Positions 8,765 through 39,329 of a stretch of DNA of 64,000 bases are shown here, in pieces. How positions within the stretch are numbered: position 1 is the first letter of the stretch; each line of letters begins with the position of its first letter. The notes under the pieces were generated by a model, which ran no database searches, was not told the DNA's origin, and was given only the letters and a program-made list of their open reading frames with translations. This DNA comes from Methanococcoides seepicolus (GTDB lineage: Archaea; Halobacteriota; Methanosarcinia; Methanosarcinales; Methanosarcinaceae), in NCBI RefSeq assembly GCF_023684405.1, contig NZ_JAGSOI010000007.1:1-64000 (forward strand), read 5' to 3'. The translations under genes and the position numbers were made by a program.

Positions 8765-9197
8765 ATTCATTTGTCCAAGGTTGACCCGATGCCGAAAATA
8801 TTTGGATAGATCGGCATTTGTAATATGATGTGACCGCTGGCTACAGCTCCCGGAAAAACGCTATTTGTATGAGAGGGAAATCGTTTGAAGCTCAAATAAC
8901 TATTCAGGGTTTTTCATCAAATCTAGAGTGATTTTTATATTTTGGCATTATAAGACCAAAATAGCTATTTAGTATACAAGTAACATAAGAATTGACTCGA
9001 TATTATGATAAATACTTCTTTTGTCTAAAAAAAAGTCTATATTCGCAAATCACAATCACCAATTATAAATAGAACCAGTATAATTTAATTTATAATGTGG
9101 AGTTCAGATAATTGGTAACCAACCAGAACTCCACATTAGCCCAAAGGCAAGGCTAGTTTACCGTTTACATTATATAAGCATAGCTTTGCCTCTGGAG
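8765..9197 (+). promoter_or_regulatory. Structured 5' leader, copy A
   Basis: Stems visible by eye are 8789-8795 with 8811-8817 (ATGCCGA/TCGGCAT, perfect), 9094-9105 with 9126-9137 (12 perfect pairs, AATGTGGAGTTC/GAACTCCACATT) and 9145-9155 with 9181-9191 (AGGCAAGGCTA/TAGCTTTGCCT, one G.U). The last stem ends 2 bases before GGAG at 9194-9197. Sequence between the first stem and the last two drifts among copies while the stems persist. A role at RNA level (riboswitch, thermosensor, stability element) is inference. No open frame on either strand is shared by all three copies. Confidence 0.65.
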
Positions 9198-9222
9198 TAA
9201 ATAAATCGATGAGGCTATAGAA

Positions 9223-10521
9223 ATGGAAAATAGAACAAGATTTGGGGTAAGTGCATTGCTTATTTCTGTGCTAGTCTTAAGCATTGCATTTGCATCTGGA
9301 GCAACGTTTGCAAAAAGTGATGATTCGGCTATCTTAGAAGCAGTAACTGTCGACAAAAGGTCAGTAGGGTTTGCTGACACGTTGGCCTATTTTGACACCG
9401 TTACCGTAAACCCGGCAGTCTTTAAAAAAGACGCTGAAGATGGTTATGTGAATATAAAGATAATAGGACAAGACCTTGACATTGAACTGAACAAAAGACC
9501 TTCAGTAAGTGAAGGGGCCAAGATCATAGTAGAAGATGAAAAGGGAATCCAGATCATGGACGCACCCGAAATCTGTACGTATGAAGGGAAAGTTGTAGGT
9601 AAAGAAGATAGCAGTGTCAAGTTCACAGTGGATGATGTTATAATCATTGGAAAGATTGTGATTGATGAAAAGACATACTTCATTGAAGAAACAAACAATG
9701 TGTACAATGGTAAATACATCCACGTGGTCTACGATAAAGATGCAATAAAACAGAGTAGTCTTGCTGATTCCGCTGAGCCTGCTGGTTGTGGAACATGCGA
9801 TCTTGAAACTGTGGTTAATTCACCACTAACTGCTGAAAGCATGCAGATTGCAACTATGAGTACCCTGAGTCTGGCAACTATTGATCTACAAACTGGATAC
9901 GACACTGAATTCCAGACTACTTATCCAAGTCCTGAAACAAGAATTGATCGTCTTATAGACGATGTTAATGATATCTATGATCCCGCAGATGCTCAATTTA
10001 ACATAAACGGATTCAAGTATCTAAGTAATACCCCTAGTGGCAACATTTCCGATATCCTGGACTATTCTAAAGATAACTTGGATAGTGAAAGAGAGAGAAC
10101 AGATAGTGATCTTGTAATCATGTTTACAGGAAAAGAATGTACTGGAAACTGGATAGGCCTTTCACAAACATACAATGGAAGTTCTGACGCAGCGTACAGT
10201 GCTGTACAGATGGTTGCAGCAGGTACAAACTCAAGGTATCAGGCAAATCCTGATGATAGGGCTATTCTTACGGCACATGAACTTGGACACAATTTTGGAG
10301 CAAGACACGATGAAGCATTCAAGTGGAATACCACAGATAACAAAACATATTATACTGTTATGTGGACACCATACATGAGTACAATGATGTTTTATCCTGA
10401 CTATATGCAGCTTGAGTTCTCCTATAATGGAACAGGAGGTCATGGTAATGACACCTGTAACAACATAGGTAACCACATAATGGTTACAAAAGACACTCTC
10501 CAGGGATTCAGGACTGGATGA
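9223..10521 (+). CDS. Secreted adamalysin/reprolysin-like zinc metalloprotease
   Basis: A 432-residue protein. Residues 10-31 form a signal peptide (ALLISVLVLSIAFASGATFA). A prodomain of roughly 170 residues contains a CGTC that could be a cysteine switch. The catalytic domain carries HELGHNFGARHDE near residue 352, the HExxHxxGxxHD zinc signature of metzincins with the trailing Asp seen in adamalysins. A methionine-rich segment after it (MSTMMFYPDYM) is a plausible Met-turn. GAGG lies 7 bp before ATG 9223. It is the only gene behind leader copy A and ends in a hairpin, so it is transcribed alone. It probably digests extracellular protein or peptides; possible targets include rival cells or the cell's own precursors. 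Confidence 0.85.
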   Translation: MENRTRFGVSALLISVLVLSIAFASGATFAKSDDSAILEAVTVDKRSVGFADTLAYFDTVTVNPAVFKKDAEDGYVNIKIIGQDLDIELNKRPSVSEGAKIIVEDEKGIQIMDAPEICTYEGKVVGKEDSSVKFTVDDVIIIGKIVIDEKTYFIEETNNVYNGKYIHVVYDKDAIKQSSLADSAEPAGCGTCDLETVVNSPLTAESMQIATMSTLSLATIDLQTGYDTEFQTTYPSPETRIDRLIDDVNDIYDPADAQFNINGFKYLSNTPSGNISDILDYSKDNLDSERERTDSDLVIMFTGKECTGNWIGLSQTYNGSSDAAYSAVQMVAAGTNSRYQANPDDRAILTAHELGHNFGARHDEAFKWNTTDNKTYYTVMWTPYMSTMMFYPDYMQLEFSYNGTGGHGNDTCNNIGNHIMVTKDTLQGFRTG

Positions 10522-14591: not shown

Positions 14592-14884
14592 ATGTCAACA
14601 TGTGCAGGTTTACTATATATATCTTTTTACATAATATTACTTTAGTATTAAAATTAAATCTTAATAATACCTAATTTATTTGTTTAAATTAAACAATTTA
14701 ATGCTAATATATTAAATATATAGTTAAACTAAAAAATACAGTTTGATGATATGGCCATAAAATTAATATAACTTTGAATTCTTTTAACTGTTCGTCATAT
14801 TAAATATATTTGATTGAGATAACAACATTAAACTGAAGTGATGCAATTAATAAAATAAGATCAGAATGGACATTCACCGGACTT
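14592..14884. promoter_or_regulatory. Divergent AT-rich intergenic region with promoter block D
   Basis: This 293-bp gap holds no gene that I can see. At 14804-14845 lies TATATTTGATTGAGATAACAACATTAAACTGAAGTGATG, a looser relative of the promoter blocks in front of the three structured leaders. Here it drives the PLDc_N/DUF4064/channel operon with no long leader. On the minus strand, several TATA-like tracts (14695-14725) could serve the HTH regulator at 14591. Confidence 0.45.
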
Positions 14885-15136
14885 ATGATATTCTTTACTA
14901 CACTTGTTTTTACATTCTATGTGGGACAGCTATTGTGGGGAATTATCGCGATAGCCATTCTTTTCTGGATATTCATGTTATGTGACTGTCTACAAAGGAA
15001 CACAGAGGATTTTCCCCGCACAGGAGAGCATGAAAAATTGATCTGGTCGGTTGTGCTAATAGTCCTGAATTTCATAGGTGCAATAATGTATTATTTTCTG
15101 GTCAGGATGCAGGATAACAGGATGAAAATATTATGA
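14885..15136 (+). CDS. PLDc_N-domain small membrane protein, copy 1 (start eroded)
   Basis: An 83-residue, two-helix membrane protein with the pattern LLWGIIAIAILFWIFMLCDC followed by LIWSVVLIVLNFIGAIMYYF. This is typical of the phospholipase D/cardiolipin-synthase N-terminal (PLDc_N) membrane hairpin. The second copy at 22442 begins 13 residues earlier (NKIKSEWT) with GTG. Here the matching residues exist in frame (about 14850-14884), but the initiating codon is gone and a stop lies just upstream, so ATG 14885 is the only start. It overlaps the next gene by 4 bases. Role unknown; it may stabilise the membrane or form a complex with the next two proteins. Confidence 0.6.
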   Translation: MIFFTTLVFTFYVGQLLWGIIAIAILFWIFMLCDCLQRNTEDFPRTGEHEKLIWSVVLIVLNFIGAIMYYFLVRMQDNRMKIL

Positions 15137-15501
15137 GCAAAAAAACTGAAACAATATTTGGAATCGCCGGTGGCTCTATTGGAGTCATCATATCAGCCTT
15201 CATATTTTATGTAGCCATAATCAATATCTGGCCAGACGGGAGTACCATGATGTATGCCACTTCTGAGGTCTTCGGAATATCTGATCCTTTCGTGGTAATG
15301 ATGGGATTTGGCACAGTAACACTAATATTGGGATTGATAGGAATTGCCGGAGGAATTGTTGCTAAAACAGACAAGAAGAAGGGTGGTAAATTAATGTTAG
15401 CATCCGGCATACTTGGAATTGCTTTATTCTTCTGGATGTGGATCCTCCCCGGACTATTACTTACGATTGGCGGGATCATGGCAATTCGAACCAGTGAATA
15501 A
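15133..15501 (+). CDS. DUF4064-like membrane protein, copy 1
   Basis: A 122-residue protein with four hydrophobic helices, glycine-rich (FGIAGGSIGVI, GLIGIAGGIVAKTDKKKGGKLM, PGLLLTIGGIMAIR). The KxGGKLM loop and GGIMA ending fit the DUF4064 family. It overlaps the PLDc_N gene by four bases and precedes the broken potassium channel. The second copy at 22729 keeps the same order. Function unknown. Confidence 0.6.
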   Translation: MSKKTETIFGIAGGSIGVIISAFIFYVAIINIWPDGSTMMYATSEVFGISDPFVVMMGFGTVTLILGLIGIAGGIVAKTDKKKGGKLMLASGILGIALFFWMWILPGLLLTIGGIMAIRTSE

Positions 15502-15535
15502 ATTATGTGAGAAATAATTCGTGGAGTTTGACCAA

Positions 15536-15883
15536 ATGCACAGAAGTCCCTTTACACACGTTTTACATGAAAGTTTCTGAAAAATAGTTTTATTCCTATT
15601 TGCGCTTCTATGCCTGACAATAATATCAGGCGTTCTGATGTACTTTATTGAAGGAAAAACTGGCGGGTTTGCCAGCATACCAAATAGTATCTACTGGACC
15701 ATTACAACGCTTACAGCTATAGGATATGGAGATATAGTTCCGCAAACAGGTATTGGAAGAGCAGTTCATTCAATCATTACACTACTCGGATCAAGTATTA
15801 TAATCGTACCGATTGTCATTGTAATTGGCGAAATTTACAACTCACTTTATAAAGCAATCTCAGGGAGAGCCGAGGAAAAATGA
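15536..15883 (+). pseudogene. K+ channel gene, copy 1, broken by TGA
   Basis: From ATG 15536 the frame encodes HRSPFTHVLHESF, then TGA at 15578-15580, then continues KIVLFLFALL to the pore segment TLTAIGYGDIVPQ. The intact copy at 23135 has CGA (Arg) where this one has TGA, so a single C-to-T transition broke the gene. The pore filter TxxTxxGYGD and the two flanking helices show a two-helix (Ion_trans_2/KcsA-type) potassium channel. A GTG at 15521 is an alternative start. A shorter product could start internally at Met 15638 but would lack the first helix. Confidence 0.75.
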
Positions 15884-16326: not shown

Positions 16327-17004
16327 ATGACACTCGATGAAACTGATCAAACAAGAATAAAAAGAATTGCTCAAACGTTATCTGAAGTTTCAAACCTGAA
16401 TGAAACTGACATGTTTATTCTGCTGACGTTGATGAAAAATAGCAAGATAACCAATTCAGAGCTGGCAAAGATACTGGATTTTAAAGACGGTAACTCTGCT
16501 GCATATCATACACGCAACATGCAAAAGGAAGGGTTGATCGACAGGTATACCATAGTACCTAACTGGAAACGTGCAGGATTGGCAACAGAATTCATCATAC
16601 TTGCAGAAGCTGAAGATGAGGAGCAATTGCTTGAGATCGAGAAAGAACATGTGATAATGGCTGATGAATATTCATCGACCACAGGGGAAATTGTTGTAAC
16701 TCCAACTATTTCCGGATGCGTCATCCTTCAGAATGTCTATCATTGTTTCGGCGATAAAACCATGGCTGTAATAAGCGGAAGGGCAACATCAGATCAGGAC
16801 GCTGCAGTCTATTGTAAAAATTATCTTGTCAACAGGTACCCCGATATCAAAATAAGTATGCTCCTGAACAAATATAAGACGGTAAATGAGTTCTTCATTG
16901 ACAAAAAAGCAGTAACAAAGCTAAAAGAACTTTTCCAGATACCGGAAAAGGAAGAAACTTCCGGTACTCTGGAAAAATTACAGGGCCTGTCATCAGAAGA
17001 TTGA
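16327..17004 (+). CDS. Lrp/AsnC-like regulator, copy B
   Basis: A 225-residue near-twin of the protein at 6970. Differences cluster in the first 13 residues (TLDETDQ for KLNDTDQ, one K/R) and the last third (VNEFFIDKK, SGTLEKL, final SED). The HTH (ITNSELAKILD and recognition helix) is unchanged, so both copies should recognise the same DNA. It overlaps the convergent UbiA gene by 12 bp. It stands upstream of the archaeocin's leader in the same relation as copy A to the metalloprotease's. Confidence 0.7.
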   Translation: MTLDETDQTRIKRIAQTLSEVSNLNETDMFILLTLMKNSKITNSELAKILDFKDGNSAAYHTRNMQKEGLIDRYTIVPNWKRAGLATEFIILAEAEDEEQLLEIEKEHVIMADEYSSTTGEIVVTPTISGCVILQNVYHCFGDKTMAVISGRATSDQDAAVYCKNYLVNRYPDIKISMLLNKYKTVNEFFIDKKAVTKLKELFQIPEKEETSGTLEKLQGLSSED

Positions 17005-17823
17005 TAACATTTTTACCAGTAACACCATAAAGTTAGGCATGGTCAATGCCATGATCATCCTATCTTTGAGCTTGTTTCCTTTTGCTACCGGATCATCCAG
17101 TAGCATTTGGATACAGCCTGCAATCAGTACTACATAGATCAGTGCAGCCAGAAAAAGGTAATGATATTTTGTGGCCGCATACAATAAGGGTATCAATGGA
17201 AGTACTACCAGCAGACTACAAACAATTGCTGCACGGCGGATCCCAATCTTCAGGGGCAGCGAATTGATATCACCGGCCACATCCTTGAAATCCTTCATGA
17301 AGGTGAGGGAAAATATCAGTACAAATACATAGGCTGCAACCATTAAGCTATCTGGGGACAGCGGTGAATAAACACTCCAGAGACCAATTGATTCCAGAGC
17401 AAAGCAGACCGCCATATCCAGCATTGCAATACCAGGGATGTCTTTAAATCTGAACATCGGATGCGAATACATTATCCCACCAATAATGATACCTGCCAAG
17501 AGACATAAGAACAAGATAAAGCTTAACTTGAGTGATAATAAAAGCGCTGCAAAAAACAGCAGCGCCATATAAATCCATGCTTTTTTCATGGACATCTGAC
17601 CGGAAGCAATAGCTCCATTTGGTTTACATATTTTGTCAATTTCAAAATCAAAGATGTCATTTAGTATGTCACATCCGCTGTGGATCATCGTTCCTGCCAG
17701 AATTACAAGAATGGCCCTATAATCCCACATGCCCAGTATGGCACAGTTTATTGCCACTACTGAAATATCTACAATACTTCCCTTTAATTTTAGAACTGAT
17801 ATGTATGGATTCTTATAATTTAT
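16993..17823 (-). CDS. UbiA-family prenyltransferase, copy B (apparent ATA start)
   Basis: This keeps both Asp motifs (NDIFDFEIDK and KDFKDVAGD) and differs from copy A at a few percent of residues. Here the alternative TTG start of copy A is TTA, so the only conventional start would be GTG about ten codons further in (MAINCAILG). The ATA at 17821-17823, with GAGGTG five bases before it, is shared with copy A and gives 276 residues including the conserved NYKNPYISVLKLKGS. The membrane topology is about eight helices. The acceptor substrate is unknown. A link to archaeocin immunity or modification is speculation. Confidence 0.7.
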   Translation of the reverse strand: MNYKNPYISVLKLKGSIVDISVVAINCAILGMWDYRAILVILAGTMIHSGCDILNDIFDFEIDKICKPNGAIASGQMSMKKAWIYMALLFFAALLLSLKLSFILFLCLLAGIIIGGIMYSHPMFRFKDIPGIAMLDMAVCFALESIGLWSVYSPLSPDSLMVAAYVFVLIFSLTFMKDFKDVAGDINSLPLKIGIRRAAIVCSLLVVLPLIPLLYAATKYHYLFLAALIYVVLIAGCIQMLLDDPVAKGNKLKDRMIMALTMPNFMVLLVKMLSIF

Positions 17824-18129: not shown

Positions 18130-18567
18130 GTCCAGGGTTGTCCCGATGCCGATAATATGTGGATAGATCGGCATTTGTAATATGATACAACCAATGGCTA
18201 CAGCTCCCGGAAAAATGGTATTTGTATGAGAGGGAAATCTTATGGACTCCAAATTACGATCCACGATTTTATACATAATCAAGAGAGAATTTTAGATTTT
18301 ATTACAATAAGATTGAATTTCGTTATTTTATATACAATTAACATGTAAAGTAACTCGAAATTATGATTAATATAAGTTTTATCTGAAATACGAGTCCATA
18401 TTTACAAATAATTACCACTAAGTATTAATAGAACTTGTACAATGTAAATTATAATGTGGAGTTAAGATAATTGGTAAACAACCAGAACTCCACATTAGCC
18501 CAAAGGCAAGGCTAGTTTGTCATTTACATTATATAAGCATAGCTTTGTCTTTGTAATTAAATTGGAG
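18130..18567 (+). promoter_or_regulatory. Structured 5' leader, copy B
   Basis: Stems are 18146-18152 with 18168-18174 (ATGCCGA/TCGGCAT), enclosed by GGTTGT and ACAACC; 18453-18464 with 18485-18496 (11 pairs); and 18504-18514 with 18540-18550 (AGGCAAGGCTA/TAGCTTTGTCT). In the last stem a C-to-T change relative to copy A keeps pairing as G.U. The gene's GGAGAG (18564-18569) follows 13 bases later. It is the best-preserved copy upstream of the archaeocin gene. Confidence 0.65.
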
Positions 18568-18578
18568 AGATAAAAGAT

Positions 18579-19392
18579 ATGAAAACTAAAGGAATTAGAA
18601 TGGCAGCGCTGTTTATGGCAATGTTGGTTGTGAGTATGTTTGCAGTCACACCTGCTATGGCATGTGCCTAGTGGGACAAGCTGTTTGCAAGCATCTGCGG
18701 ATGGAAATACTTACGGAATGTTTTCAGACATCACAACATTGGATTCTAAGTCAGTTGATATACACGTACAAAATGCTTTGAAATCCAATGATATACAAAA
18801 ATTAGTACAAACATTGAACAAAAAAGGGTACAAGTTAAATCAAGAATATGCTCAGGGATTGAGTACAACTGTAGAAGATACCTATTATGAGGGAGTAGGA
18901 TTACCATTTCTAGGCACAAATAATTCTGATGCCTCCATTATTGCTATAATGAACAATGATAATGAAATTATCAAAATGCAAGCAACGATTGTCCATAGAG
19001 ACAAAGACCAATTCCCAACATCTGTTGACTTATTAACTGTAAACGGAAATAGTATAGAAACTGAAAGTGCTACTGTAGATAGCATATTTGGTACTGGAGC
19101 TAAAGTTTCCATGGCTTCCATAGCTTCCGTAGATTCCACGAGTCCTCTTATTCAGATAGATCAGATAACAACTAGTTCAGCCGAATGCAGCGGATGTAAA
19201 ACGTTATACGGTATTGTATGTGTATATGGATGTGCCATCTCCATGGCCGTATTATGCACAATAGCAGGACTTACAACCGGTGTCGGTGGAATTGCATGTG
19301 TAGTAGTTGCAACTGCTCTATGCGGTTTCATAGATGAGCATGGATGTGATTATGGAGCAGAGGCTGCATGCGTACTCCTAGGTTACTGCTAA
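18579..19392 (+). CDS. Halocin-C8-like archaeocin precursor (one apparent frameshift)
   Basis: ATG 18579, preceded by GGAGAG, encodes a Sec-type signal peptide (MAALFMAMLVVSMFAVTPAMA) and stops at TAG 18669. The rest of the protein is in the +1 frame. Removing the T of that TAG joins MACA to SGTSCLQASADG without a break. The middle (about 170 residues) is acidic and soluble, like the immunity-containing propeptide of halocin C8. The last 69 residues hold ten cysteines spaced 2-7-3-7-13-7-7-7-5; as I recall the mature halocin C8, its spacing is 2-7-3-7-13-7-8-8-5. It ends in a Cys, as does halocin C8. The product is probably a secreted, disulfide-rich antimicrobial peptide. The frameshift may be real inactivation or a sequence error. 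Confidence 0.75.
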
Positions 19393-19404
19393 CATGTAGA
19401 AGAT

Positions 19405-19440
19405 TAGAATGAAAAATCCCTTTTTATTTTTTTATTATTC
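19405..19440 (+). terminator. T-rich terminator after the archaeocin gene
   Basis: CCCTTTTTATTTTTTTATT follows the stop by about 30 bp. No clear hairpin is seen, but pyrimidine-rich T tracts suffice for archaeal termination. Confidence 0.35.
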
Positions 19441-19547
19441 GAACCTCACTAAGGTACCATACATGATAAAAAATCAGTGGATTTGTGCTCACATTGATTG
19501 GTTTATGAATTATATTTTAAACTCAAATTTTAAGGAAGGATTCGTGT

Positions 19548-20246
19548 ATGATAACAACGAAAAATTTTAGATTAATACTCGTGCTGGCTTCCATAGCTAT
19601 AGCCTTATTTGTCTCAGGATGCATGGAGGAAAACTTAAGTGCAGAAGAAATTACATCCCAGATACTGGATAAAAAGAACAGCATTCAAGATTATTCATAT
19701 ACAATGCACATGACCTCCTATATCGAACAAAAAACTGAAGAAATTGAATATAAAACTATGTTCAAAAGGCCAAATATGCTTATAAGTACTGCAACAAAGC
19801 CCGGTAAACAAAATCAAAACATCAGAATTTTAGATGGGGAATTTATGTGGACATACTTTCCAGATACCAACACGGTCACAAAAATCGCAATTTCCAATAT
19901 ACCCGAACATATGAAAAATGACTATGCCAACATTATAGATAAATTTCTGAATGATACAAGCGTAACATTACTTGGTGAGGAAAACATAGATGGAAGAACT
20001 ACTTATCTGTTGGAAACAACTCCAGAAAAAATGGATGGATATTCCGAGTTACCATACAAAACAAAAATCTGGGTAGATCAAGAAACATGGATGCCTCTTA
20101 AGTATGAGATTTATAAGTCCAATGGAAATCTAACAATGAAATTAGAAATTCGAGAACTTAAAGTTAACACAGGAATCCCAGATTCTGAATTTAAATTTGA
20201 AGTTCCAACAAGCGCAAAAATGCTGGTTTTGGGGGAGGAGGAATAA
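19548..20246 (+). CDS. LolA-like secreted lipoprotein
   Basis: A 232-residue protein. A signal peptide ends in the lipobox LFVSGC (Cys 25), so it should be a lipoprotein on the outer face of the membrane. The body has the alternating pattern of LolA/LppX-type half-barrels (DYSYTMHMTSYIEQ, MFKRPNMLISTATKPG, LDGEFMWTYFPDTNTVTK, LPYKTKIWVDQETWMPLKYE), the family of outer-membrane lipoprotein-sorting-like proteins found in many archaea. It follows the archaeocin gene by 155 bp on the same strand. A role in binding lipids or the peptide is possible but unproven. Confidence 0.65.
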   Translation: MITTKNFRLILVLASIAIALFVSGCMEENLSAEEITSQILDKKNSIQDYSYTMHMTSYIEQKTEEIEYKTMFKRPNMLISTATKPGKQNQNIRILDGEFMWTYFPDTNTVTKIAISNIPEHMKNDYANIIDKFLNDTSVTLLGEENIDGRTTYLLETTPEKMDGYSELPYKTKIWVDQETWMPLKYEIYKSNGNLTMKLEIRELKVNTGIPDSEFKFEVPTSAKMLVLGEEE

Positions 20247-20332
20247 ATCTCCTGAATAATTAAGCTTGAAAAAGAATAAGTTCTTAAATTCAATAGATTA
20301 AAAACAAAAAAAAGGCAATAGGAAGGATAAAC

Positions 20333-20509
20333 ATGAATAAATCTCTAATGAAAGAACGATTTTTTCAGTTCATTGCAGCCCTTATTACAGGCACATTACT
20401 AGGATACTTGTCTCATGATTTAATGAATGGAATATTTAATGGATTTCTCATTGGAATTGGGTTCATTACAGGGATGGAGCTCATAAGAAGGGTAAAGAAA
20501 ACCAATTGA
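20333..20509 (+). CDS. Small two-helix membrane protein
   Basis: A 58-residue frame, preceded by GGAAGGA at a good distance, encodes two hydrophobic segments (FFQFIAALITGTLLGYL and GIFNGFLIGIGFITGMELI) with a basic tail (RRVKKTN). Its place between the archaeocin and the thioredoxin-CcdA gene makes it a candidate immunity peptide. That is only a guess from size and location, and I do not recognise a family. Confidence 0.5.
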   Translation: MNKSLMKERFFQFIAALITGTLLGYLSHDLMNGIFNGFLIGIGFITGMELIRRVKKTN

Positions 20510-20767
20510 TTAGATGCATTTATGAATATATCCTGTTAAAATCAAATAATATGACAGTATTTGTATGATATTTAAATTCGCCTCAACTTTATTATTTTTG
20601 TATATATTCGCTGCAAAGAGTGTCGAGACGAACCAACAAACACTCAACCAAGCACTATAATTTAAAAGATAATATTAATAGGAGGTCGCCATTGGAAATT
20701 TTTATCAAGGAACTCCTATGAGCCCAACCATTACAATTGAACAATTCGGATTTTAAAGAGGTTTAAT
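20510..20767 (+). other. Gap with a possible 21-residue peptide behind AGGAGG
   Basis: A strong ribosome site GGAGG (20681-20685) is followed by ATT at 20691, which opens a 21-codon frame ending TAA 20754-20756, 11 bases before the next start. An overlapping TTG at 20692 gives only nine codons. No ATG is available. It may be a leader peptide or the remains of a gene. The rest of the gap is AT-rich without a recognisable feature. Confidence 0.25.
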
Positions 20768-21751
20768 ATGCTGAAATATTTCACTTATTTCTTTTTTATT
20801 TTACTCCTCCTGTCCATCCCCACTTCTGCTGCACAACCATTATACATCGAATATTTCCACCAAACTGGATGCCATGATTGCGAGATAACTGACCCCATTA
20901 TTGATCAAATCGAAAAACAATATGAAAGTATAGAAATTGTAAGAATCGATGTAATAAACACTGAAGGATTCAACCGATGGAACCAATACGGTTTTATAGA
21001 GGTTCCAGCGGTGGTCATAAATAATGAAACTAAAATCCCAAAGGAAGAACTAACTGAAGAAAAACTTAGACTATCAATTGATAGGTATTTTAAGGATAAT
21101 AAGCCTGAAAACCAGTACATAAACAGTGATTTGAATCTTCCGTTTGCTTATTCACTCGGTTTGTTTGCAGGATTCTCCCCTTGTTTAATGGCAATACTTG
21201 GATTTCTTTTAAGTTTTACAGCCGGTACCAGTGAATCTACCCGCAGCGGTATGGAACGAGCAATAGTCTTTGGTGTCGGATTGATGACTTCCTATCTAGC
21301 CATAGGAGTGGGGTTGCTTGTATTCAGGAAGACACTCCCTGACATGGAATTGTTTTCTGTAGTCACAGGAATTATAGTTATTGGAATCGGACTGTACCTG
21401 ATGGGACTTTTCAGCCTGCCGATGTCCCTCGACAAATATTTCCAGAACAAGGCCAGAAAACATGCCGGTACAATTGGAGGATTATTTTTCCTGGGTGTTT
21501 TGTTCTCTCTGGTAAAAGTGCCGTGCACTGTACCTATGCTTCTGGTTTTGCTGAACAAAACAATTACAGAAGGGACAATTGGTGATTTAGCCCTATTGTT
21601 TGCTTTTAGTTTTGGAGTATTGACACCTTTCCTTGGAATTGGGTTGCTTGGAGGTTATACTTTATCCAAACATGTTCGTGAGCACAGGAGATACCTGAAA
21701 TTAATAAGTGGAATATCCCTTGTTTTGTTGGGTTTATGGGTTATGATCTGA
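20768..21751 (+). CDS. Thioredoxin-CcdA (DsbD-like) fusion protein
   Basis: A 327-residue membrane protein. A signal segment (residues 1-22) precedes an extracellular thioredoxin-like domain with the redox motif CHDC near residue 35 and a cis-Pro-like EVPAVVI. From residue about 120 follow six helices of the CcdA/DsbD type, with cysteine-proline motifs GFSPCLMAILGF and VKVPCTVPMLLVLL. The family carries electrons across the membrane to reduce or shuffle disulfides outside. It sits 1.4 kb downstream of a ten-cysteine secreted peptide, which could be its substrate. It could equally serve cytochrome c maturation, which this organism also needs for MmcA. Confidence 0.85.
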   Translation: MLKYFTYFFFILLLLSIPTSAAQPLYIEYFHQTGCHDCEITDPIIDQIEKQYESIEIVRIDVINTEGFNRWNQYGFIEVPAVVINNETKIPKEELTEEKLRLSIDRYFKDNKPENQYINSDLNLPFAYSLGLFAGFSPCLMAILGFLLSFTAGTSESTRSGMERAIVFGVGLMTSYLAIGVGLLVFRKTLPDMELFSVVTGIIVIGIGLYLMGLFSLPMSLDKYFQNKARKHAGTIGGLFFLGVLFSLVKVPCTVPMLLVLLNKTITEGTIGDLALLFAFSFGVLTPFLGIGLLGGYTLSKHVREHRRYLKLISGISLVLLGLWVMI

Positions 21752-21838: not shown

Positions 21839-22387
21839 TTGATAGAAATCATCTTGATATTGGGAATTGTGTTCTTTGCTTTCATGACTGTTTACAATGC
21901 GATTGCATACAGAAAAAATAAAACAAGTCTCTTACCAACAATATTCAGTTTTTTGCTGACCTTGATAACGCTACTTTTATTCCTAGAGCAATCTCTCCTG
22001 TGTATAACCATACTCATGTTAGCTGTATTCCTACTTTCAGTAGTAAAATACCCGATGATCTCAAAAATCCAGGAGAAAAGATTCTTAAAGGAATTGGAGA
22101 AAACCGATCTCAACGAACCTCTTAAAGTAATGGATTTTGTTGTTGGGATGAAAGGTTGGGGAAAAATCGCCGTTAAATATGGAGCAAGAAAGACAGCACT
22201 CATCTATTCAGTAAGCTTTTCGACCATTATAGGTCTCGGACTTCTATCCATGAATGTGCTAATTCCTGATTATGAAAAGAGTAAATATTTCGTGCTGCAA
22301 ATGACCCTGATTTTTACAGTACTCTTTTATTTTCAGATGCACAAGACATTAAAAAAATATATTTATAGCATGATAAGGACTGACTAA
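21839..22387 (+). CDS. Unknown 182-residue membrane protein
   Basis: Four to five hydrophobic segments (EIILILGIVFFAFMTVY, LPTIFSFLLTLITLLLFL, LCITILMLAVFLLSVVKYP, and two near the C-terminus) with a basic central loop. It lies between the thioredoxin-CcdA gene and the intact K+ channel triplet. The GGGGGTT before the TTG at 21839 gives a plausible ribosome site. I do not recognise the family. An immunity or export role for the nearby archaeocin is possible by position only. Confidence 0.5.
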   Translation: MIEIILILGIVFFAFMTVYNAIAYRKNKTSLLPTIFSFLLTLITLLLFLEQSLLCITILMLAVFLLSVVKYPMISKIQEKRFLKELEKTDLNEPLKVMDFVVGMKGWGKIAVKYGARKTALIYSVSFSTIIGLGLLSMNVLIPDYEKSKYFVLQMTLIFTVLFYFQMHKTLKKYIYSMIRTD

Positions 22388-22441
22388 AAACAGACTGCAA
22401 ACTAGAGACATATGTAAAATTAAAAATAAGGGGAGGATAAA

Positions 22442-22732
22442 GTGAACAAAATAAAATCAGAATGGACAGTCGCTGGACTTATGTTACTATTTGCAATAAT
22501 TGTATTCACATATCATATCGGCCAATTATTGTGGGGAATAATTGCAATAGCCATTCTTTTCTGGATATTCATGTTATGTGACTGTCTCCAAAGGAACACA
22601 GAGGATTTTCCCCGCACAGGAGAGCATGAGAAATTGATCTGGTCGGTTGCTTTGATCTTCCTAAATTTGATAGGTGCAGTAATGTATTACTTCCTGGTCA
22701 GGATGCAGGATAACAGGGACATCTTACAATGA
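22442..22732 (+). CDS. PLDc_N-domain small membrane protein, copy 2
   Basis: A 96-residue protein starting at GTG 22442, preceded by GGGGAGG. It has the same two helices and the TEDFPRTGEHEKLIWSV loop as copy 1, with about 80% identity. It overlaps the next gene by four bases. This copy keeps the N-terminus lost at 14885. Promoter block D is not conserved in front of it, so the two triplets are probably expressed under different conditions. Confidence 0.65.
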   Translation: MNKIKSEWTVAGLMLLFAIIVFTYHIGQLLWGIIAIAILFWIFMLCDCLQRNTEDFPRTGEHEKLIWSVALIFLNLIGAVMYYFLVRMQDNRDILQ

Positions 22733-23100
22733 AAGCAAAAGTCGAAACACTATTAGGTATCATTGGAGGTTCCTTAGGAGTCCTTGCGTCAGTTATCATT
22801 TTATCTGTAGCCCTGATTTCGATATGGCCAGGCGGAGGTTCCATGATATATGGCAGTCCTGTAATTATTGGAGATGCTGGAACTTCACTGATAATGATTG
22901 TTTGGGGGATGTTATCATTAGTAGTGGGTTTGGTGGGAATTGCCGGAGGAATTATTGCTAAAACAGACATGAGTAAAGGCGGTAAATTAATGCTGGTATC
23001 CGGTATAATTGGATTTTTTTTATATTTCTCCATATGGTGGATTATCCCCGGGGTATTGCTTATATCCGGCGGAATAATGGCAATGCGGAGCAGTGAATAA
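22729..23100 (+). CDS. DUF4064-like membrane protein, copy 2
   Basis: A 123-residue protein with four helices, glycine-rich, keeping the GLVGIAGGIIAKTDMSKGGKLM loop and SGGIMAMRSSE end. It overlaps the PLDc_N gene by four bases, and the channel gene follows after 34 bp. Function unknown. Confidence 0.6.
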   Translation: MKAKVETLLGIIGGSLGVLASVIILSVALISIWPGGGSMIYGSPVIIGDAGTSLIMIVWGMLSLVVGLVGIAGGIIAKTDMSKGGKLMLVSGIIGFFLYFSIWWIIPGVLLISGGIMAMRSSE

Positions 23101-23134
23101 ACGATGTAAGAAATAATTCGTGGAGTTTGATCAA

Positions 23135-23482
23135 ATGCACAGCAGTCCCTTTACGCGAGTATTACATGAAAGTTTCCGAAAAATAGTTTTATTCATATTT
23201 GCTCTTCTGAGTTTAACAATAATATCAGGCGTTCTGATGTACTTTATTGAAGGAAAAACTGGCGGGTTTGCCAACATACCAAATAGTATTTACTGGGCCA
23301 TAACAACGCTCACAACTATAGGATATGGGGATATAGTTCCGCAAACAGGCATTGGAAGAGCAGTTAATTCAATCATTACACTACTCGGATTAAGTATCAT
23401 AATCGTACCGATTGTTATTGTAATTGCCGAAATTTACAACTCACTCTATAAAGCGATCTCAGGGGGAGCCGAGGAAAAATGA
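23135..23482 (+). CDS. Two-helix potassium channel, copy 2 (intact)
   Basis: A 115-residue protein (or 120 from GTG 23120). Helix 1 is KIVLFIFALLSLTIISGVLMYF. The pore loop carries TTLTTIGYGDIVPQ with the GYGD selectivity filter, and helix 2 is SIITLLGLSIIIVPIVIVIAEIY. It has no voltage sensor and no RCK domain. Such channels tune membrane potential and K+ leak. Next to an archaeocin it could offset pore damage, but that is speculative. The copy at 15536 is broken by one nonsense codon. Confidence 0.8.
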   Translation: MHSSPFTRVLHESFRKIVLFIFALLSLTIISGVLMYFIEGKTGGFANIPNSIYWAITTLTTIGYGDIVPQTGIGRAVNSIITLLGLSIIIVPIVIVIAEIYNSLYKAISGGAEEK

Positions 23483-23553
23483 ATCGAGAAAAAGAAATAA
23501 GAACAGCTATAGTTTCATTAGCTGCACTTTCTTTGCCGATATATGCAATTTAA
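23479..23553 (+). pseudogene. Remnant 24-residue frame after the channel
   Basis: It starts ATGAATCGAGAAAAA, overlapping the channel stop by four bases exactly as the 115-residue gene does at 15880. It diverges after five codons and ends at TAA after a short hydrophobic run (IVSLAALSLPIYAI). It marks the right end of the duplicated block. Confidence 0.4.
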
Positions 23554-23686
23554 GTTCTTTTTGAGGCTAGCTATTGACTATGAAAAGGAGTGAATCTATC
23601 AATACACTCCTTTTGAAACTGGATATATCACAGGATCAAACCCAAAAGCTAATAATCCTACATTGCCTATGCGGATTGGTGATTAT

Positions 23687-24244
23687 ATGAAAATACTTGG
23701 GATATCAGGAAGTCCAAAACAAGACGGTAACAATGAGACTATCATAAGAAACGTACTGGAAGTCGCAAAAAGCAAGGGTTTTGAGACTGACAGCATCATG
23801 ATCTCACAAAAGAAGATAGCACCTTGTATTGCATGTGGAACATGTGCAAGAGGGGAAAAATGTCCTATCAATGATGATATGCAGGAACTATATGGCAAAC
23901 TTGCAGAAGCTGATGCGATCGTATTTTCAACTCCGGTGTATTTCGGTGGCATGACAGCACAACTCAAAGCATTGTTCGACAGAAGCGTACTGCTCAGAAG
24001 GCAGGGATCCCAGCTTCGTGGCAAGTTCGGTGCAGTAATGGCAGTCGGAGGCTCCAGGAACGGAGGTCAGGAAAAGACCATACAGAACGTCCACGACTGC
24101 ATGATGGTGCACGGAATGATACTGGTAGGAGACGGCGCACACTTTGGCGGAATTGCACAAAAACCTGTGGATGATGACGAGATTGGCATGAAGACCGTAA
24201 TTGACACCATCGAGAACCTTTGTGCGACCCTCAAAAAAGAATAA
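23687..24244 (+). CDS. Archaeal iron-sulfur flavoprotein (ISF) / NADPH-dependent FMN reductase family
   Basis: A 185-residue flavodoxin-fold protein. It has KILGISGSPKQDGNN (FMN phosphate loop), then CIACGTCARGEKC, the compact C-x2-C-x2-C-x5-C cluster motif of methanogen ISF proteins, and TPVYFGGMTAQLKALFDR. ISF passes electrons between ferredoxin and acceptors such as oxygen or peroxide-derived species. I chose ATG 23687 (KILGIS) because flavodoxin folds begin there; an upstream ATG adds seven unlikely residues. It is a single gene with divergent-looking AT-rich DNA on both sides. Confidence 0.85.
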   Translation: MKILGISGSPKQDGNNETIIRNVLEVAKSKGFETDSIMISQKKIAPCIACGTCARGEKCPINDDMQELYGKLAEADAIVFSTPVYFGGMTAQLKALFDRSVLLRRQGSQLRGKFGAVMAVGGSRNGGQEKTIQNVHDCMMVHGMILVGDGAHFGGIAQKPVDDDEIGMKTVIDTIENLCATLKKE

Positions 24245-24354
24245 CGTATTAATTATTTATAAAATATCAGCATGCAGAGGATGAGCAATGTTGCACATCC
24301 TTTGCGCCCTATAGAATTAATATCGAATATATTATGTGAAGTTCGTGGACCATC

Positions 24355-26088
24355 ATGTTCTCAAGATCGGACATCACTAAATTAATGCAACGATGGCCCC
24401 ACTTTGAAGATGGGGTCACCAATGATATAGCGATACTTATAGGAATATTCACAGGACTGACCATTGTAGCATACAACATTTGTCTGAACTATACAGAAGA
24501 TTTCTTCTGGAGCAATAGTGAGATCACGAACAGCTATTTTGTGATATTGATCCCTGCCATCGGTGGATTATTGGTCGGCATCATAGCTTTCCTTTCCGCA
24601 GATATACGTCGCTGCAATGTAGCAGAGGTCATTGAAGGGACTGCTTTGCATGGAGGGCGTATCAGGATAAAGGATGCTTTCCGGGAAGTGGTCTTATCAA
24701 TAATATCCATTGCAACAGGAGGTTCCGTAGGTAAAGAAGCTCCCGGCATCCTTGCGGGTTCAGGTATCGGCTCGATATTCGCAAAAGCCCTGAAAGCACC
24801 CGACCATCGTTACAGGACATTGATAGGATGCGGTGCTGCCGGAGGTATCGCTGCTGCTTTTAATGCACCTCTAGCAGGAGTGGTCTTTGTTGTAGAAGTG
24901 ATATTCGGAGAACTTGAAACAAGGACTTTCATACCTATTGTAATATCGGCCGTATTCGCTACACTTGTAGCGAATCTTATCTTCGAGGTCAAGCCGATAC
25001 AGATATCATACTACGGCCTTGTGGACCCGATAGGGGAATTGATCCTTTACCTCATACTTGGAATTCTTTGCGGCATATCATCCGTATTATTGATACGTAC
25101 CCTTTTCACAGTACATGACGGATTTAACAAACTTCCTGTCCACAGTGCATTCAAGCCTGCTATTGGCGGCCTTTTCGTAGGGTTAATGGGATATTGTTAC
25201 CCCCAGATACGCGGTATAGGATATGATGTTATAGCAGATGTGCTTATGAACAGCTTTACCATCCAGCTGCTTCTGGTATTATTCGTCCTGAAAATACTCG
25301 CATTTTCATTTACGATCGGTTCCGGTGGTGCTGGCGGTTCCATTGTACCATCAATGTTCGCAGGAGCCATGCTCGGTGGAGCATACGGAACGATAGTACA
25401 CAGCATATTCCCAACAAGCACCGCCGCTGCAGGAGCTTATGCACTGGTAGGAATGGGCGCTACACTTGCAGGAGTCGCAAGAGCCCCGCTTACAGCGGTA
25501 CTTATCCTTTTTGAACTTACACGAGACTACAACATCATATTACCACTGATGTTCGCATGTGTGATCAGCAACTCTATTTCGAACAGCCTTCACGAAGAAT
25601 CGATGTTCACAGAAGTGCTTAAACGAAGAGGGTTCACAATACGCAGAGGAAAAGAGGTCAACATAATGGAAGCAATGTTCGTCAGGGATAATATGCGAAC
25701 TAATGTCCATACGATATCCGTGGAAGATACCGCAAAGGACCTGCTCGGCCTTATGCAGTCAAGCCGGCACGCAGGATTTCCGGTCCTTGATAGCGATCAG
25801 AAGTTATGTGGGATAGTAACTCTCGAGGATATGAGAGAAAAGGTCAATTATGGAGAGCTTGATACTAAGATAAGCCAAATTGCAACCCATGATGTTATAG
25901 CAGCATACCCTGACGAAACGCTGGATGTTGTCCTGAAAAGATTTGCGATGAGGGACGTTGGAAGACTACCTGTTGTCTCAAGAGATGATGACAAAAGACT
26001 TCTTGGCATCATTACAAGAAGTGATATCGTCAAATCCTACAACAAGGAAATAGTCACTCGTGTTCAGGAAAAAGATCAAAAAAGATAA
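24355..26088 (+). CDS. ClC-family chloride channel/antiporter with CBS domains
   Basis: A 577-residue protein. The first 430 residues form the ClC membrane domain with selectivity-filter motifs GGSVGKEAPG (gating Glu) and GSGGAGGSIVPSMFAGAMLGG, and PLAGVVFVVE. Residues about 440-570 are two CBS domains (HAGFPVLDSDQKLCGIVTLED and GRLPVVSRDDDKRLLGIITRSD), which in this family bind adenine nucleotides. c-di-AMP, which the DacZ encoded at 62707 would make, is also a known CBS ligand in some transporters; that link is inference. It probably moves chloride across the membrane for osmotic or pH balance. Confidence 0.9.
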   Translation: MFSRSDITKLMQRWPHFEDGVTNDIAILIGIFTGLTIVAYNICLNYTEDFFWSNSEITNSYFVILIPAIGGLLVGIIAFLSADIRRCNVAEVIEGTALHGGRIRIKDAFREVVLSIISIATGGSVGKEAPGILAGSGIGSIFAKALKAPDHRYRTLIGCGAAGGIAAAFNAPLAGVVFVVEVIFGELETRTFIPIVISAVFATLVANLIFEVKPIQISYYGLVDPIGELILYLILGILCGISSVLLIRTLFTVHDGFNKLPVHSAFKPAIGGLFVGLMGYCYPQIRGIGYDVIADVLMNSFTIQLLLVLFVLKILAFSFTIGSGGAGGSIVPSMFAGAMLGGAYGTIVHSIFPTSTAAAGAYALVGMGATLAGVARAPLTAVLILFELTRDYNIILPLMFACVISNSISNSLHEESMFTEVLKRRGFTIRRGKEVNIMEAMFVRDNMRTNVHTISVEDTAKDLLGLMQSSRHAGFPVLDSDQKLCGIVTLEDMREKVNYGELDTKISQIATHDVIAAYPDETLDVVLKRFAMRDVGRLPVVSRDDDKRLLGIITRSDIVKSYNKEIVTRVQEKDQKR

Positions 26089-26098
26089 AGAAGCGACA

Positions 26099-27391
26099 TC
26101 ATACCAGAACACGACCAAGGAAATATCCGGCAGTCGTATCATAAATTTCAACATCACAGGAAGTTCCCGGAGATACAGAGCCTTCAGGAAGAACGACCGG
26201 TTTGTATGATGCAGTACGTGCCATTACTCCTTTGACCTTTGCATCCATTGAAATGAAAACTTCCCCTTTCCAGCCGATCATCTTTTTCTTTGAATCCAAT
26301 TTAATGGCATCACATAGTTTGTGAAGTTTATGTGAACGTTCGACAACGATGCGAGTATCCAGATTGCGATATTCAAGTGCTTTTGTAAGAGGGCGAGGAG
26401 TATAACGGGAAATGTTCACCTTGTCAGGTTTCATTGTCTTCACCCATTCCAGCGTCATGTTGAAATCTTCATCGGATTCACCCGGAAATCCTACAATGAT
26501 ATCAGTAAAAAGTGTCAGATTCGGAAAAGCATCCTTTAAACGGGAAATGATGGCGTTGGTCTCTTCTATGGAATGGTAACGGTTCATCTTCTTAAGGACA
26601 GAATCAGATGCTGACTGTATCGGAAGATGCACTATCTTGTATATCTTATCAGATTTGAAAGCATCAATAAGCTCATCAAGGATAGGAGTTACCGAGAACG
26701 GGTTCATCATGCCGACCCTTACCTTGAAATCTCCTGGGATCGCCACGATACGCCTTAAGAGTTCCGGAAGCAACACATCCCTGTCAGTGCCATACTGCCC
26801 GTTATCCTGCGAGGTCAGCCATATCTCACGACATCCCTCATCCACTGCCATACGGATATCCTCAACAATGGAATCGGCATCGAAAGAACGTAATTTGCCC
26901 CGGGCTATCGTAACGATACAATAAGCACAGCTATAATCACATCCCTGAGATATCTGGCAGATGTGTATGTTCGGATTAAAACGTGAATGAGCGGTCTTGA
27001 GAAAACCTTCCGGCTCAGAGGATAATAGTTCCACCCTTTCGCGTGAACCTCCATTGCGGGAGTTTTCAATATACTTAATAATCTGCCCGATCTTTGCAAT
27101 GGAGTTCACACCAAGGATATGAGCATCGGGATTCCTCTCAAGTATCGTTTCGAGCTGTACCTGTGGCATGCAGCCGGTGACGACCACATCGATTCCTTTA
27201 GCCCCAAGATCCTCGATCTTGTGAAGGATCTTCTGCTCAGTGGTATACTTAACAGTACATGTGTTAATGACCACTACTTCGGCATTCTTTTCATCCACAA
27301 ACTCATACCCGAGATCTTTGACCGATGCGATCATGATCTCGGATGAAGCCTGATTTGCCGAACATCCATAGGTTGTGATGTGTACTTTCAT
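26099..27391 (-). CDS. tRNA-t6A37 methylthiotransferase (archaeal e-MtaB type)
   Basis: A 430-residue radical-SAM enzyme. The N-terminal UPF0004 domain (KVHITTYGCSANQASSEIM) carries three Fe-S cysteines. The radical SAM motif CDYSCAYC lies near residue 155, and the C-terminal 65 residues are a TRAM-like RNA-binding domain. The family adds a methylthio group to t6A at position 37 of tRNAs. It is adjacent to the convergent ClC gene (10-bp gap) and 12 bp downstream of glpX. The KEOPS subunit Cgi121 at 28603, needed to make t6A, lies close by. Confidence 0.9.
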   Translation of the reverse strand: MKVHITTYGCSANQASSEIMIASVKDLGYEFVDEKNAEVVVINTCTVKYTTEQKILHKIEDLGAKGIDVVVTGCMPQVQLETILERNPDAHILGVNSIAKIGQIIKYIENSRNGGSRERVELLSSEPEGFLKTAHSRFNPNIHICQISQGCDYSCAYCIVTIARGKLRSFDADSIVEDIRMAVDEGCREIWLTSQDNGQYGTDRDVLLPELLRRIVAIPGDFKVRVGMMNPFSVTPILDELIDAFKSDKIYKIVHLPIQSASDSVLKKMNRYHSIEETNAIISRLKDAFPNLTLFTDIIVGFPGESDEDFNMTLEWVKTMKPDKVNISRYTPRPLTKALEYRNLDTRIVVERSHKLHKLCDAIKLDSKKKMIGWKGEVFISMDAKVKGVMARTASYKPVVLPEGSVSPGTSCDVEIYDTTAGYFLGRVLV

Positions 27392-27403
27392 GTCAAGGAG
27401 GAA

Positions 27404-28492
27404 TTACAAACGAAGAGGTGTCTGTTCTTTGTCGCCGATGTAGATGGAATCTGTCAGTTTCACAACACCAGAACTACCCATAGAAATACTGTGAACCCTC
27501 GCATCTCCGCCACCGAAAAGGTTCACCTGGTTCAGGAACTGACCATTTGTGACTCCAGATGCTGCAAAGATGAAATCTTTGCCTGGAACGAGTTTGTCAG
27601 TGTCAAGAACATCATTGATGTTATCTTCTGTGATACCCATTGTAGCAAGACGGGGCATCTTCTCTGCTTTCTCTGCTTCTATATCTTCTTCCGATCCGCC
27701 GTTGGCAACGGTAGGAAGGATGAGTCTTGCAAGGACCTTGCCGCCAAGGATCTTAATTGCAGCCGCAGTCAGCACAGCCTCGCCTGAACCGCCTGAACCC
27801 ATTACGACATGGATACCCGAACCACGTACAGCTGTGGAAACACCTGGCATAAGGTCGCCGTCAGAAACAAGGCTTACACGTGCACCGGTGGCACGGATCT
27901 CCTCGATCTTATTTGTGTGTCGTTCCCTGTCGAGAATGACAACAACAATCTCCCCAATATCCCTGTCAAGTGCCTTTGCAACTATCTCAAGATTCTTTAT
28001 GACAGGTGCATCAAGGTCAATTTTTTCATCAGGATGTTCCTTTTCATACCTGACAACATCAGGACCAACAACGATCTTGTCCATATAAACATCAGGCCCA
28101 TGGAACAATCCGCCAGGCTCTGCCATTGCCATAACGGAGATAGAACCAGGGATACCGTCTGCGGTCAGATTGGTCCCTTCAAGAGGATCGACTGCTATAT
28201 CTACTACGATATCGCCTTTGCCTGTACCGACTTCCTCACCGATGAATAGCATAGGAGCTTCATCACGCTCACCTTCACCGATCTTGATAACACCTTTGAA
28301 ATCAAGAGTGTTCATCATCCTACGCATGGCTTCTACAGAAACCTGATCTGCGTAGTTCTTGTTGCCTTTCCCCATCTGATATGATGCAGCAATGGCTGCA
28401 GTTTCTGTTACGTGGATAAGGCTTGGAAGTAATGCACACTCGATAGGACCTGCGCATTTTATCATGTTCTCTACTGTCTTTGGGTGAGGCAA
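27404..28492 (-). CDS. glpX: Class II fructose-1,6-bisphosphatase
   Basis: A 362-residue enzyme with GlpX motifs: GVIKIGEGERDEAPML, DIAVDPLEGTNL (metal and phosphate binding) and GSGGSGEAVLTAAAIKIL. It hydrolyses fructose-1,6-bisphosphate in gluconeogenesis, the direction methanogens mainly use. The length is slightly above the bacterial 330-340. It is followed by the methylthiotransferase gene at 12 bp and could be co-transcribed. A TATA-like region lies at about 28500-28560. Confidence 0.9.
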   Translation of the reverse strand: MPHPKTVENMIKCAGPIECALLPSLIHVTETAAIAASYQMGKGNKNYADQVSVEAMRRMMNTLDFKGVIKIGEGERDEAPMLFIGEEVGTGKGDIVVDIAVDPLEGTNLTADGIPGSISVMAMAEPGGLFHGPDVYMDKIVVGPDVVRYEKEHPDEKIDLDAPVIKNLEIVAKALDRDIGEIVVVILDRERHTNKIEEIRATGARVSLVSDGDLMPGVSTAVRGSGIHVVMGSGGSGEAVLTAAAIKILGGKVLARLILPTVANGGSEEDIEAEKAEKMPRLATMGITEDNINDVLDTDKLVPGKDFIFAASGVTNGQFLNQVNLFGGGDARVHSISMGSSGVVKLTDSIYIGDKEQTPLRL

Positions 28493-28602
28493 AATATCAT
28501 CTCCGATAAAAGTATGTAGCTGACTAATGTTTCAAAACTATTAATGTTTTCCATTAACTTTCATCAAAAACGAACGTTGGTACAGATAGGGTCGAAACAA
28601 AC

Positions 28603-29157
28603 TTATTTAAGAACATCAACAAGAGCAACCCTTTCCAGAACCAGTTCAGGTATCCGGTCTTCTCCCACCGCTTCAATTTCAGCATCCGTTATAGAGAATT
28701 GGGAAATAAGCTTCTCATTCTTGGATATTGAATGTTTGAGCACATCCGAAGGCTCAACGAGTGAAGAAACCTTTTTAGCGGCTTCGCCCACATTCTCAGG
28801 AGCTCCCATTATAATGAACACGACATCCAGCCTGCCTTCGGAAAGCCCAATGGAGAATGCCTCGCCGATCTGCCTTTTACCGGAAGCATAACGCATCATC
28901 TCCACCCCAAGGTCCTTTGCAATGTTAGTACCATTCTCCATTGCTTTCATTGCTTTTGAAATTGCATGGTCTATATGGGCTTTTCCAGCGATCTTGCCGG
29001 CATCCATTCCCTGTATTATCACATCATGTTCGGATGCTATTGAAGAAAGACCTTTCAAAAACCTTTGTAGTTCATCTATGACCAAAGAGCCTTCTATGAG
29101 CTGGATATCCATGATATGTGGATTAGATTTCCCTTCAATAAGTATGACGGTCACCAT
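28603..29157 (-). CDS. cgi121: KEOPS complex subunit Cgi121
   Basis: A 184-residue protein with the pattern IIQGMDAGKIAGKAHIDHAI followed by MRYASGKRQIGEAF and GLSEG, typical of archaeal Cgi121. This subunit binds the 3' CCA end of tRNA and helps KEOPS make t6A37. I chose ATG 29157 (MetValThrVal), since a longer frame from 29181 adds a stretch without family support. The downstream methylthiotransferase acts on the same tRNA position. Confidence 0.8.
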   Translation of the reverse strand: MVTVILIEGKSNPHIMDIQLIEGSLVIDELQRFLKGLSSIASEHDVIIQGMDAGKIAGKAHIDHAISKAMKAMENGTNIAKDLGVEMMRYASGKRQIGEAFSIGLSEGRLDVVFIIMGAPENVGEAAKKVSSLVEPSDVLKHSISKNEKLISQFSITDAEIEAVGEDRIPELVLERVALVDVLK

Positions 29158-29370
29158 ATAAAGAAAACAATATATGATCAAAGGGAAGCGTTCTTTCCGC
29201 TCCTTTTATTTAGTTTGTCATTAATTAAACGAAATATAACTAAATTTATCAGAACTAGAGCTATTATCATATCTACAATTTTCCATAGCAAAAGTCGCGG
29301 ATACCAAGATCGAAGCTATCCATGATGTGTTCTCGAAATAAGATAAGAACTTGTTGGAACGGTGTTATTT

Positions 29371-32259: not shown

Positions 32260-32264
32260 TGTGG

Positions 32265-32298: not shown

Positions 32299-32304
32299 TT
32301 AGCC

Positions 32305-39316: not shown

Positions 39317-39329
39317 TACTTTATTGAAA

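Follow-up and report, generated by a model that had tools for sequence, protein, structure and literature searches.

The window (the whole stretch of 64,000 nucleotides from Methanococcoides seepicolus that was analysed) rather probably holds the Methanococcoides copy of a modular cassette for secreted peptides, which would be disulfide-bonded and antagonistic, with an exchangeable payload and partner gene, the copy found here being now broken. The C-terminal domain of the precursor is a member of the halocin C8-like family TIGR04449, and comparison with locus L094 of genome G017, a member of the same genus which we take to be Methanococcoides burtonii, indicates that the body of the precursor and its partner gene were exchanged as one block, at the left edge of which the reading frame was lost. 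The features of the locus are collected in Table 1.

Table 1. Positions of the features of the cassette in the window.
Feature	Position	Strand	Basis
Winged-helix regulator adjoining the cassette	16327..17004	+	PF13412; 95% identical in L094 (M. burtonii)
UbiA prenyltransferase adjoining the cassette	16993..17757	-	PF01040; conserved in M. burtonii and a Methanolobus locus
Possible diverged sRNA162-like antisense RNA, weak	18373..18507	-	RF02792, 17.3 bits, E = 1.2, gathering 78
Leader RNA up to the start codon (P1 ~18452-18497, P2 ~18501-18553, Shine-Dalgarno region before 18579)	18434..18581	+	Model R1
ORF of the signal peptide, 30 codons closed by a TAG at 18669	18579..18671	+	Translation from ATG 18579; signal near identical in M. 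burtonii locus L094
Precursor body, middle domain and HalC8-like C-terminus, 252 open codons	18634..19392	+	Frame next to that of the signal; 71% identity to L011 over 242 residues
Signal/body junction, where Methanococcoides-like upstream sequence joins the body and the frame is lost	18660..18684	+	2 nt shorter than L011; identity switches here
Body and LolA segment without M. burtonii counterpart, both flanks matching M. burtonii	18668..20788	+	blast
Halocin C8-like domain with ten cysteines, ending in Cys	19186..19389	+	TIGR04449
LolA-like lipoprotein, encoded by the partner gene of types A, C and F	19548..20246	+	PF17131, E = 1.2e-16
Trx-CcdA, a fusion of an exported thioredoxin domain (GCHDCE) with a CcdA/DsbD-like membrane domain	20768..21751	+	PF02683, E = 6.5e-11
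182-aa membrane protein after Trx-CcdA	21839..22387	+	94% identical in L094 (M. burtonii)

HalC8-like domain and reading frame of the precursor

An earlier note on this DNA had read a halocin C8-like peptide at the C-terminus and had proposed a search with the HMM of that family; the search gave a significant alignment rather than none, the domain scoring 42.5 bits in hmmscan (E = 9.7e-11, positions 1-69 of 69) against the curated TIGR04449 cut-off of 24, and 45.4 bits in a six-frame search. The start C-x2-C-x7-C-x3-C-x7-C and the terminal Cys of the TIGR04449 pattern are both present. The spacing given earlier for the ten cysteines, 2-7-3-7-13-7-7-7-5, was confirmed in the C-terminal 68-69 residues and is identical in L002, L003, L005 and L023, and the spacing that the earlier note gave for HalC8 itself, 2-7-3-7-13-7-8-8-5, was found exactly in L022, a TIGR04449 member of the same phylum. 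The C-terminal part holds 10 of the 12 cysteines of the protein, a clustering matched in 2 of 20000 shuffles; of the 173 residues in the middle part, 21 are acidic and 10 basic, and the body, this middle included, is weakly similar to L021 and L020 (25-26% over 181-214 residues, E 7e-10 and 1e-8). The signal beginning at 18579 is of the Sec type, MKTKGIRMAALFMAMLVVSMFAVTPAMA being without a twin arginine, and Tat-like signals are found in other TIGR04449 members of the phylum (for example NRRKVLRMG in L021). A Pfam match to RuBisCO_small, at 16.5 bits against a cut-off of 27, was rejected as chance; a search of PDB sequences gave no meaningful match, plasmid records gave no match, and an AlphaFold model of an intact relative was left unused (pLDDT 49; best Foldseek E 0.06).

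The HalC8-like domain occurs once in this genome. It was found above the cut-off in 8 of 112 Methanosarcinaceae genomes and, phylum-wide, in 26 of 393 genomes (17 of 136 genera), so that its presence in a methanogen, which had been called unusual, is uncommon but not singular. Proteins with the domain are also encoded in small genomes of another family (f8; L019, L123 and L141), and G216, from the group of small genomes with the domain, is presumably Archaeoglobus fulgidus.

The precursor layout described in the earlier note holds good in its parts, a Sec-type signal, an acidic middle and a Cys-rich end, but not as one gene: the 814 bases of 18579-19392 are not divisible by three, signal and body lie in different frames, and a single ORF is therefore ruled out. 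The frame of the ATG at 18579 encodes MKTKGIRMAALFMAMLVVSMFAVTPAMACA and then reaches a TAG, the signal peptide being coded by 18579-18668. The closest relative, L011:3826-4641 (contig JAUWQD010000068.1 of the Methanosarcinaceae MAG CSMAG_2493), is one continuous ORF of 271 aa, and in alignment with it the window is short by 2 nt precisely at the junction of signal and body. Signal, N-terminal part and Cys-rich end form an intact single ORF in L011, L012, L014 and L015 but not in the window; the precursors of M. spelaei (L013), L087, L144, L103 and L090 are broken at other sites, so that decay of the precursor is common. No copy of the 25-base junction sequence was present in 29 relatives searched, its only occurrence among the 30 genomes being in this one.

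Because the difference amounts to two bases in a non-homopolymer context, and because other precursors of the family are broken elsewhere, we favour a true break; a one-base sequencing slip was dropped, since the difference to L011 is two bases. The genome is nevertheless a draft of 158 contigs, and the remaining frame of the body is open and well conserved, as would be expected if an assembly or sequencing error had been laid over an intact gene and the ORF of the earlier note were functionally right. The position of the two-base difference at the recombination junction, together with its context and with the breaks seen at different sites in other genomes, makes such an error rather unlikely. 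Programmed frameshifting at the junction stop, fusing signal to body in this organism, would call for a +1 shift at UAG, a codon that is recoded in pyrrolysine users; yet the intact relatives (L011, L012, L014 and L015) need no shift and the break in M. spelaei lies at another site, and there is no conserved slip site, so that this explanation can hardly be right. With a true break, the HalC8-type copy of this genome most likely yields no secreted peptide at present, the frame being lost at the junction.

Exchange of bodies and partner genes

Locus L094 shares with the window the regulator, UbiA, leader, signal, Trx-CcdA, 182-aa membrane protein, PLDc_N, DUF4064 and channel genes, and in place of the HalC8-type body and LolA-like gene it carries an unrelated body, likewise Cys-rich, with genes for a membrane protein of 95 aa and a protein of 391 aa. 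The blast matches to M. burtonii end at 18667 and restart at 20789. When leader and signal (18480-18639) were compared in 40-nt steps, identity was 90-100% to M. burtonii and 62-75% to the MAG, and in the body this relation was reversed.

Several further rearrangements were seen around these loci. Between Trx-CcdA and the 182-aa membrane protein, M. burtonii has an ABC ATPase and an ABC-2 permease (L094 4821-6502) that are absent there in the window. The cassette is flanked by diverged direct copies (82-87%) of a PLDc_N/DUF4064/ion-channel module about 7.6 kb apart (window 14840-15737 and 22436-23336), the left ion-channel copy containing an in-frame stop. The regulator-UbiA pair is duplicated in the window (6970-8403 and 16327-17760, 93% identity), with a third copy (76%) on contig C143; after the first copy come a leader RNA and an M12 reprolysin-like protease (9223-10521), and after the second the HalC8-like gene.

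Cassettes were collected across the Methanosarcinaceae by way of the Trx-CcdA alignment (A2). The Trx-CcdA clade is found in Methanosarcina, Methanolobus, Methanohalophilus, Methanococcoides and uncultured Methanosarcinaceae; the gene adjoins nearly all precursors, and few copies lack a precursor, intact or broken (G103, the second copy in G079 and the decayed second copy in G082). A MAG labelled Bacteroidaceae also contains a 51% identical Trx-CcdA fragment (L052 2393-2695), probably misbinned archaeal DNA. The precursors beside Trx-CcdA resemble one another in their signals, and their Cys-rich bodies fall into at least seven types (A, which is HalC8-like, and B, C, D, E, F and G); type A alone scores above a curated family cut-off, and the other types tested matched no NCBIfam or Pfam family. 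Signals group by genus and bodies by type: within Methanosarcina, signal identity among types A, B, C and F is 70-90%, and that of the single type E signal 47-57%, while two bodies of unlike type mostly share about 20-30% of their residues; type A bodies from separate genera share 45%.

The gene that follows the body goes with the body type, types having been assigned by eye and by motif. A LolA-like gene follows types A, C and F in 11 of 12 loci, the exception carrying transposases, compared with none of 13 others (Fisher p = 2.7e-6), and a 391-aa protein (COIL391) follows type D in all five loci, compared with none of 20 others (Fisher p = 1.9e-5), although these values overstate independence because the loci share ancestry. 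A second LolA-like family, usually preceded by a small membrane protein, follows types B and E in 8 of 8, and type G has no partner gene of its own. The LolA-like lipoprotein of the window is a candidate immunity or sequestering protein; since the middle domain diverges between body types and the partner is type-specific, the partner gene is as good an immunity candidate as the middle domain. Partner genes could instead be processing factors. Values of dN/dS were 0.77 for the body, 0.34 for LolA, 0.13-0.19 for Trx-CcdA and 0.08 for UbiA, the fast evolution of the body fitting either an arms race or the decay of a broken copy. The regulated cassette of its own that the earlier note had recognized is real, but it is larger than was stated there, with a leader RNA that is structured, bodies that can be exchanged and a thioredoxin-CcdA gene dedicated to it.

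Leader RNA and sRNA162

A conserved leader of ~150 nt lies upstream of nearly every precursor examined. R1, a covariance model built from 21 leaders, has matches in 69 of 112 Methanosarcinaceae genomes, with up to 25 copies; the leader of the window, itself one of the training sequences, scores 101.6 bits (E = 1.5e-22), and its fold has an energy of -40 kcal/mol (z = -5.4). The matches stop at start codons, and the proteins encoded by the sampled downstream genes mostly carry a Sec-type signal at the start, among them M12 reprolysin-like and C39-like peptidases and probable trypsin-like ones. Because many of the genes under the leader are plain exported enzymes, it is not weapon-specific. Further copies are present in the window at 590-736 and 9075-9225, the first ahead of an exported protein of 121 aa and the second ahead of the M12 peptidase, and five clustered leaders (L204-L208) precede serine-protease-like and C39-like exported proteins on contig C35 of the same genome (G000; 22192-39862).

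Pairing in the two helices reaches 89.4% across 92 distinct leaders, and two-sided changes number 152, compared with 54 when shuffled and at most 32 when slid, in an alignment fitted to the structure, which favours this result; 12 of the 15 pairs, in P1 and the Shine-Dalgarno helix, change on both sides, and P1 bears most of the covariation. A segment before the ribosome site (GCCUCUU-like) pairs with an upstream strand in 81-83 of 84-85 at the core pairs, this helix being backed by conservation rather than covariation because it is mostly invariant, and the same segment alternatively pairs into the Shine-Dalgarno helix (helix 2, 90.1% paired). Among the minimum-energy folds of 86 leaders, 49 have the upstream-strand pairing and 20 the Shine-Dalgarno pairing. 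From these features the leader looks like a translational switch. An Rfam search of the leader strand gave no family above threshold, sRNA162 matching the antisense strand only. We also considered the leader as a DNA operator over a TATA box (TTATATAAG near 18530), which is less likely because in Methanosarcina a TATA-like element precedes P1 of the leader and the transcription start in M. mazei lies upstream of the hairpins (PMC3510493).

In Methanosarcina, RF02792 (sRNA162) matches antisense to the leaders with about 138-215 bits for the best cassette copies, its 5′ end lying 75-78 nt upstream of the start codon in 10 of 12 places and 136 nt upstream in two with a duplicated helix. The weak match in the window lies 72 nt from the start codon, near the Methanosarcina spacing, and agrees in position alone. 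sRNA162 binds the 5′ UTR of MM2442, a gene of unassigned function, with an overlap of 65 nt (Jager et al. 2012, PMC3510493), and the transcription start of MM2442 was placed 184 nt before the annotated start, with no ribosome-binding site noted (PMC3510493). In G082, which has the best RF02792 matches, the precursor L086:15600-16376 has upstream of it an overlapping gene pair, the second gene coding for a winged-helix-like regulator, as in MM2440-MM2441. The gap from this pair to the TTG start of the precursor is 694 nt, or ~736 nt on the assumption that annotation begins at Met15, another 42 nt downstream, compared with 739 in the paper, and the antisense distance is 76+42 nt, compared with 184-65=119 from the paper. 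Because gene order, gap and antisense distance agree, MM2442 is most likely a type C precursor (L086:15600-16376, itself or an ortholog), its true start most likely being the TTG behind AAGAGGTG and the annotated start 42 nt too far downstream.

Strong RF02792 matches antisense to the leaders at a fixed distance would also suit a type I toxin-antitoxin system, with an intracellular toxin and an sRNA162-like RNA as antitoxin. Type I toxins, however, are small membrane peptides, whereas the precursors run to about 200-280 residues, with a signal peptide, many cysteines and a dedicated exported thioredoxin. The antisense match is moreover weak in the window, no sRNA162 antisense match was detected in M. 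burtonii, and an sRNA162 deletion strain of M. mazei is viable (PMC3510493), all of which makes a type I system very unlikely. A second alternative is that these Cys-rich precursors are secreted for a role other than antagonism, such as surface redox sensing, adhesion or kin signalling, the HalC8 domain being a mere shared scaffold; the same leader does precede exported peptidases and other secreted proteins, and sRNA162 of M. mazei also influences methylamine genes through MM2441 (PMC3510493). We nevertheless think such a role unlikely, as bodies and their type-specific partners are replaced block by block while the signal in front stays constant, and several copies have decayed, a pattern usual for weapon and immunity genes and less so for structural proteins, and as HalC8, the sole characterized relative, is an antibiotic.

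Proposed working of the cassette and comparison with known systems

In the working that we infer for an antagonistic cassette, down to the direction of its regulation, the ~150-nt leader RNA would control translation, its GCCUCUU-like segment pairing with either the upstream strand or the Shine-Dalgarno sequence, and in Methanosarcina the antisense sRNA162 would overlap the 5′ part of the leader. The precursor would be exported through its Sec-type signal, the membrane thioredoxin-CcdA protein would act outside the cytoplasm to shape the disulfides in its Cys-rich C-terminal peptide, and a protease outside the cell, perhaps one that has this leader as well, would release the peptide, which may then inhibit neighbouring archaea. 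The producer would be protected by the partner gene specific to the body type, that is, by the LolA-like lipoprotein for the HalC8 type. Body and partner would be swapped together as one block while leader and signal stay the same, and the HalC8-type block of the window probably came by such a swap, with loss of the frame at the junction.

More tentatively, the Methanosarcinaceae may possess polymorphic secreted weapons with Cys-rich payloads, immunity partners, a disulfide enzyme and a new RNA switch that also stands over secreted peptidases, sRNA162 being an antisense regulator of the system. The evidence suggests a modular weapon system that is not known from earlier descriptions. To our knowledge, archaeal peptide antibiotics come almost solely from haloarchaea and Sulfolobus, and neither the leader nor exchangeable bodies of this kind have been described before; a search of the papers available on methanogen bacteriocins, exchangeable bodies and the leader gave no relevant description, and an earlier mention of methanogen HalC8 domains is possible. 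If methanogens and their uncultured relatives do possess such a payload system, conflict between methanogens in sediments and digesters could be studied directly through its genes. MM2442, on which one of the best-studied archaeal sRNAs acts, would also gain a possible function, and the leader, as a defined RNA family present in 69 of 112 genomes, opens the way to a search for its trigger.

Maturation of HalC8 releases the C-terminal end of a precursor, the N-terminal part of which gives immunity (PMC11509114, PMC12893001). The window resembles it in having the TIGR04449 domain above the cut-off, ten cysteines with nearly the same spacing and an N-terminal extension, but its signal is of the Sec type, in contrast with the Tat signal of HalC8, and its frame is broken. 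At several loci of the phylum with Tat-like signals, the halocin gene is followed by a membrane protein of ~125 aa and a permease of ~535 aa, with no Trx-CcdA seen; the cassette of the window has Trx-CcdA and LolA-like genes instead of the small membrane protein and permease. The type D precursor of M. burtonii touches the C-terminal part of NF040679, halocin C8 precursor-like, at 11.1 bits against a cut-off of 200, and is not a member. Halocin H4 is released by an extracellular serine protease (PMC12893001), and the halocin H4/halolysin system is similar in having a secreted precursor whose C-terminal active part is freed outside, as is predicted here, where secreted proteases encoded under the same leader are candidates for this step. 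Finally, MM2442 and sRNA162 share with the window the leader, the type of signal and the place of the antisense RNA, and differ from it in that the body of MM2442 is of type C, not HalC8, and that the antisense match in the window falls under the Rfam threshold.
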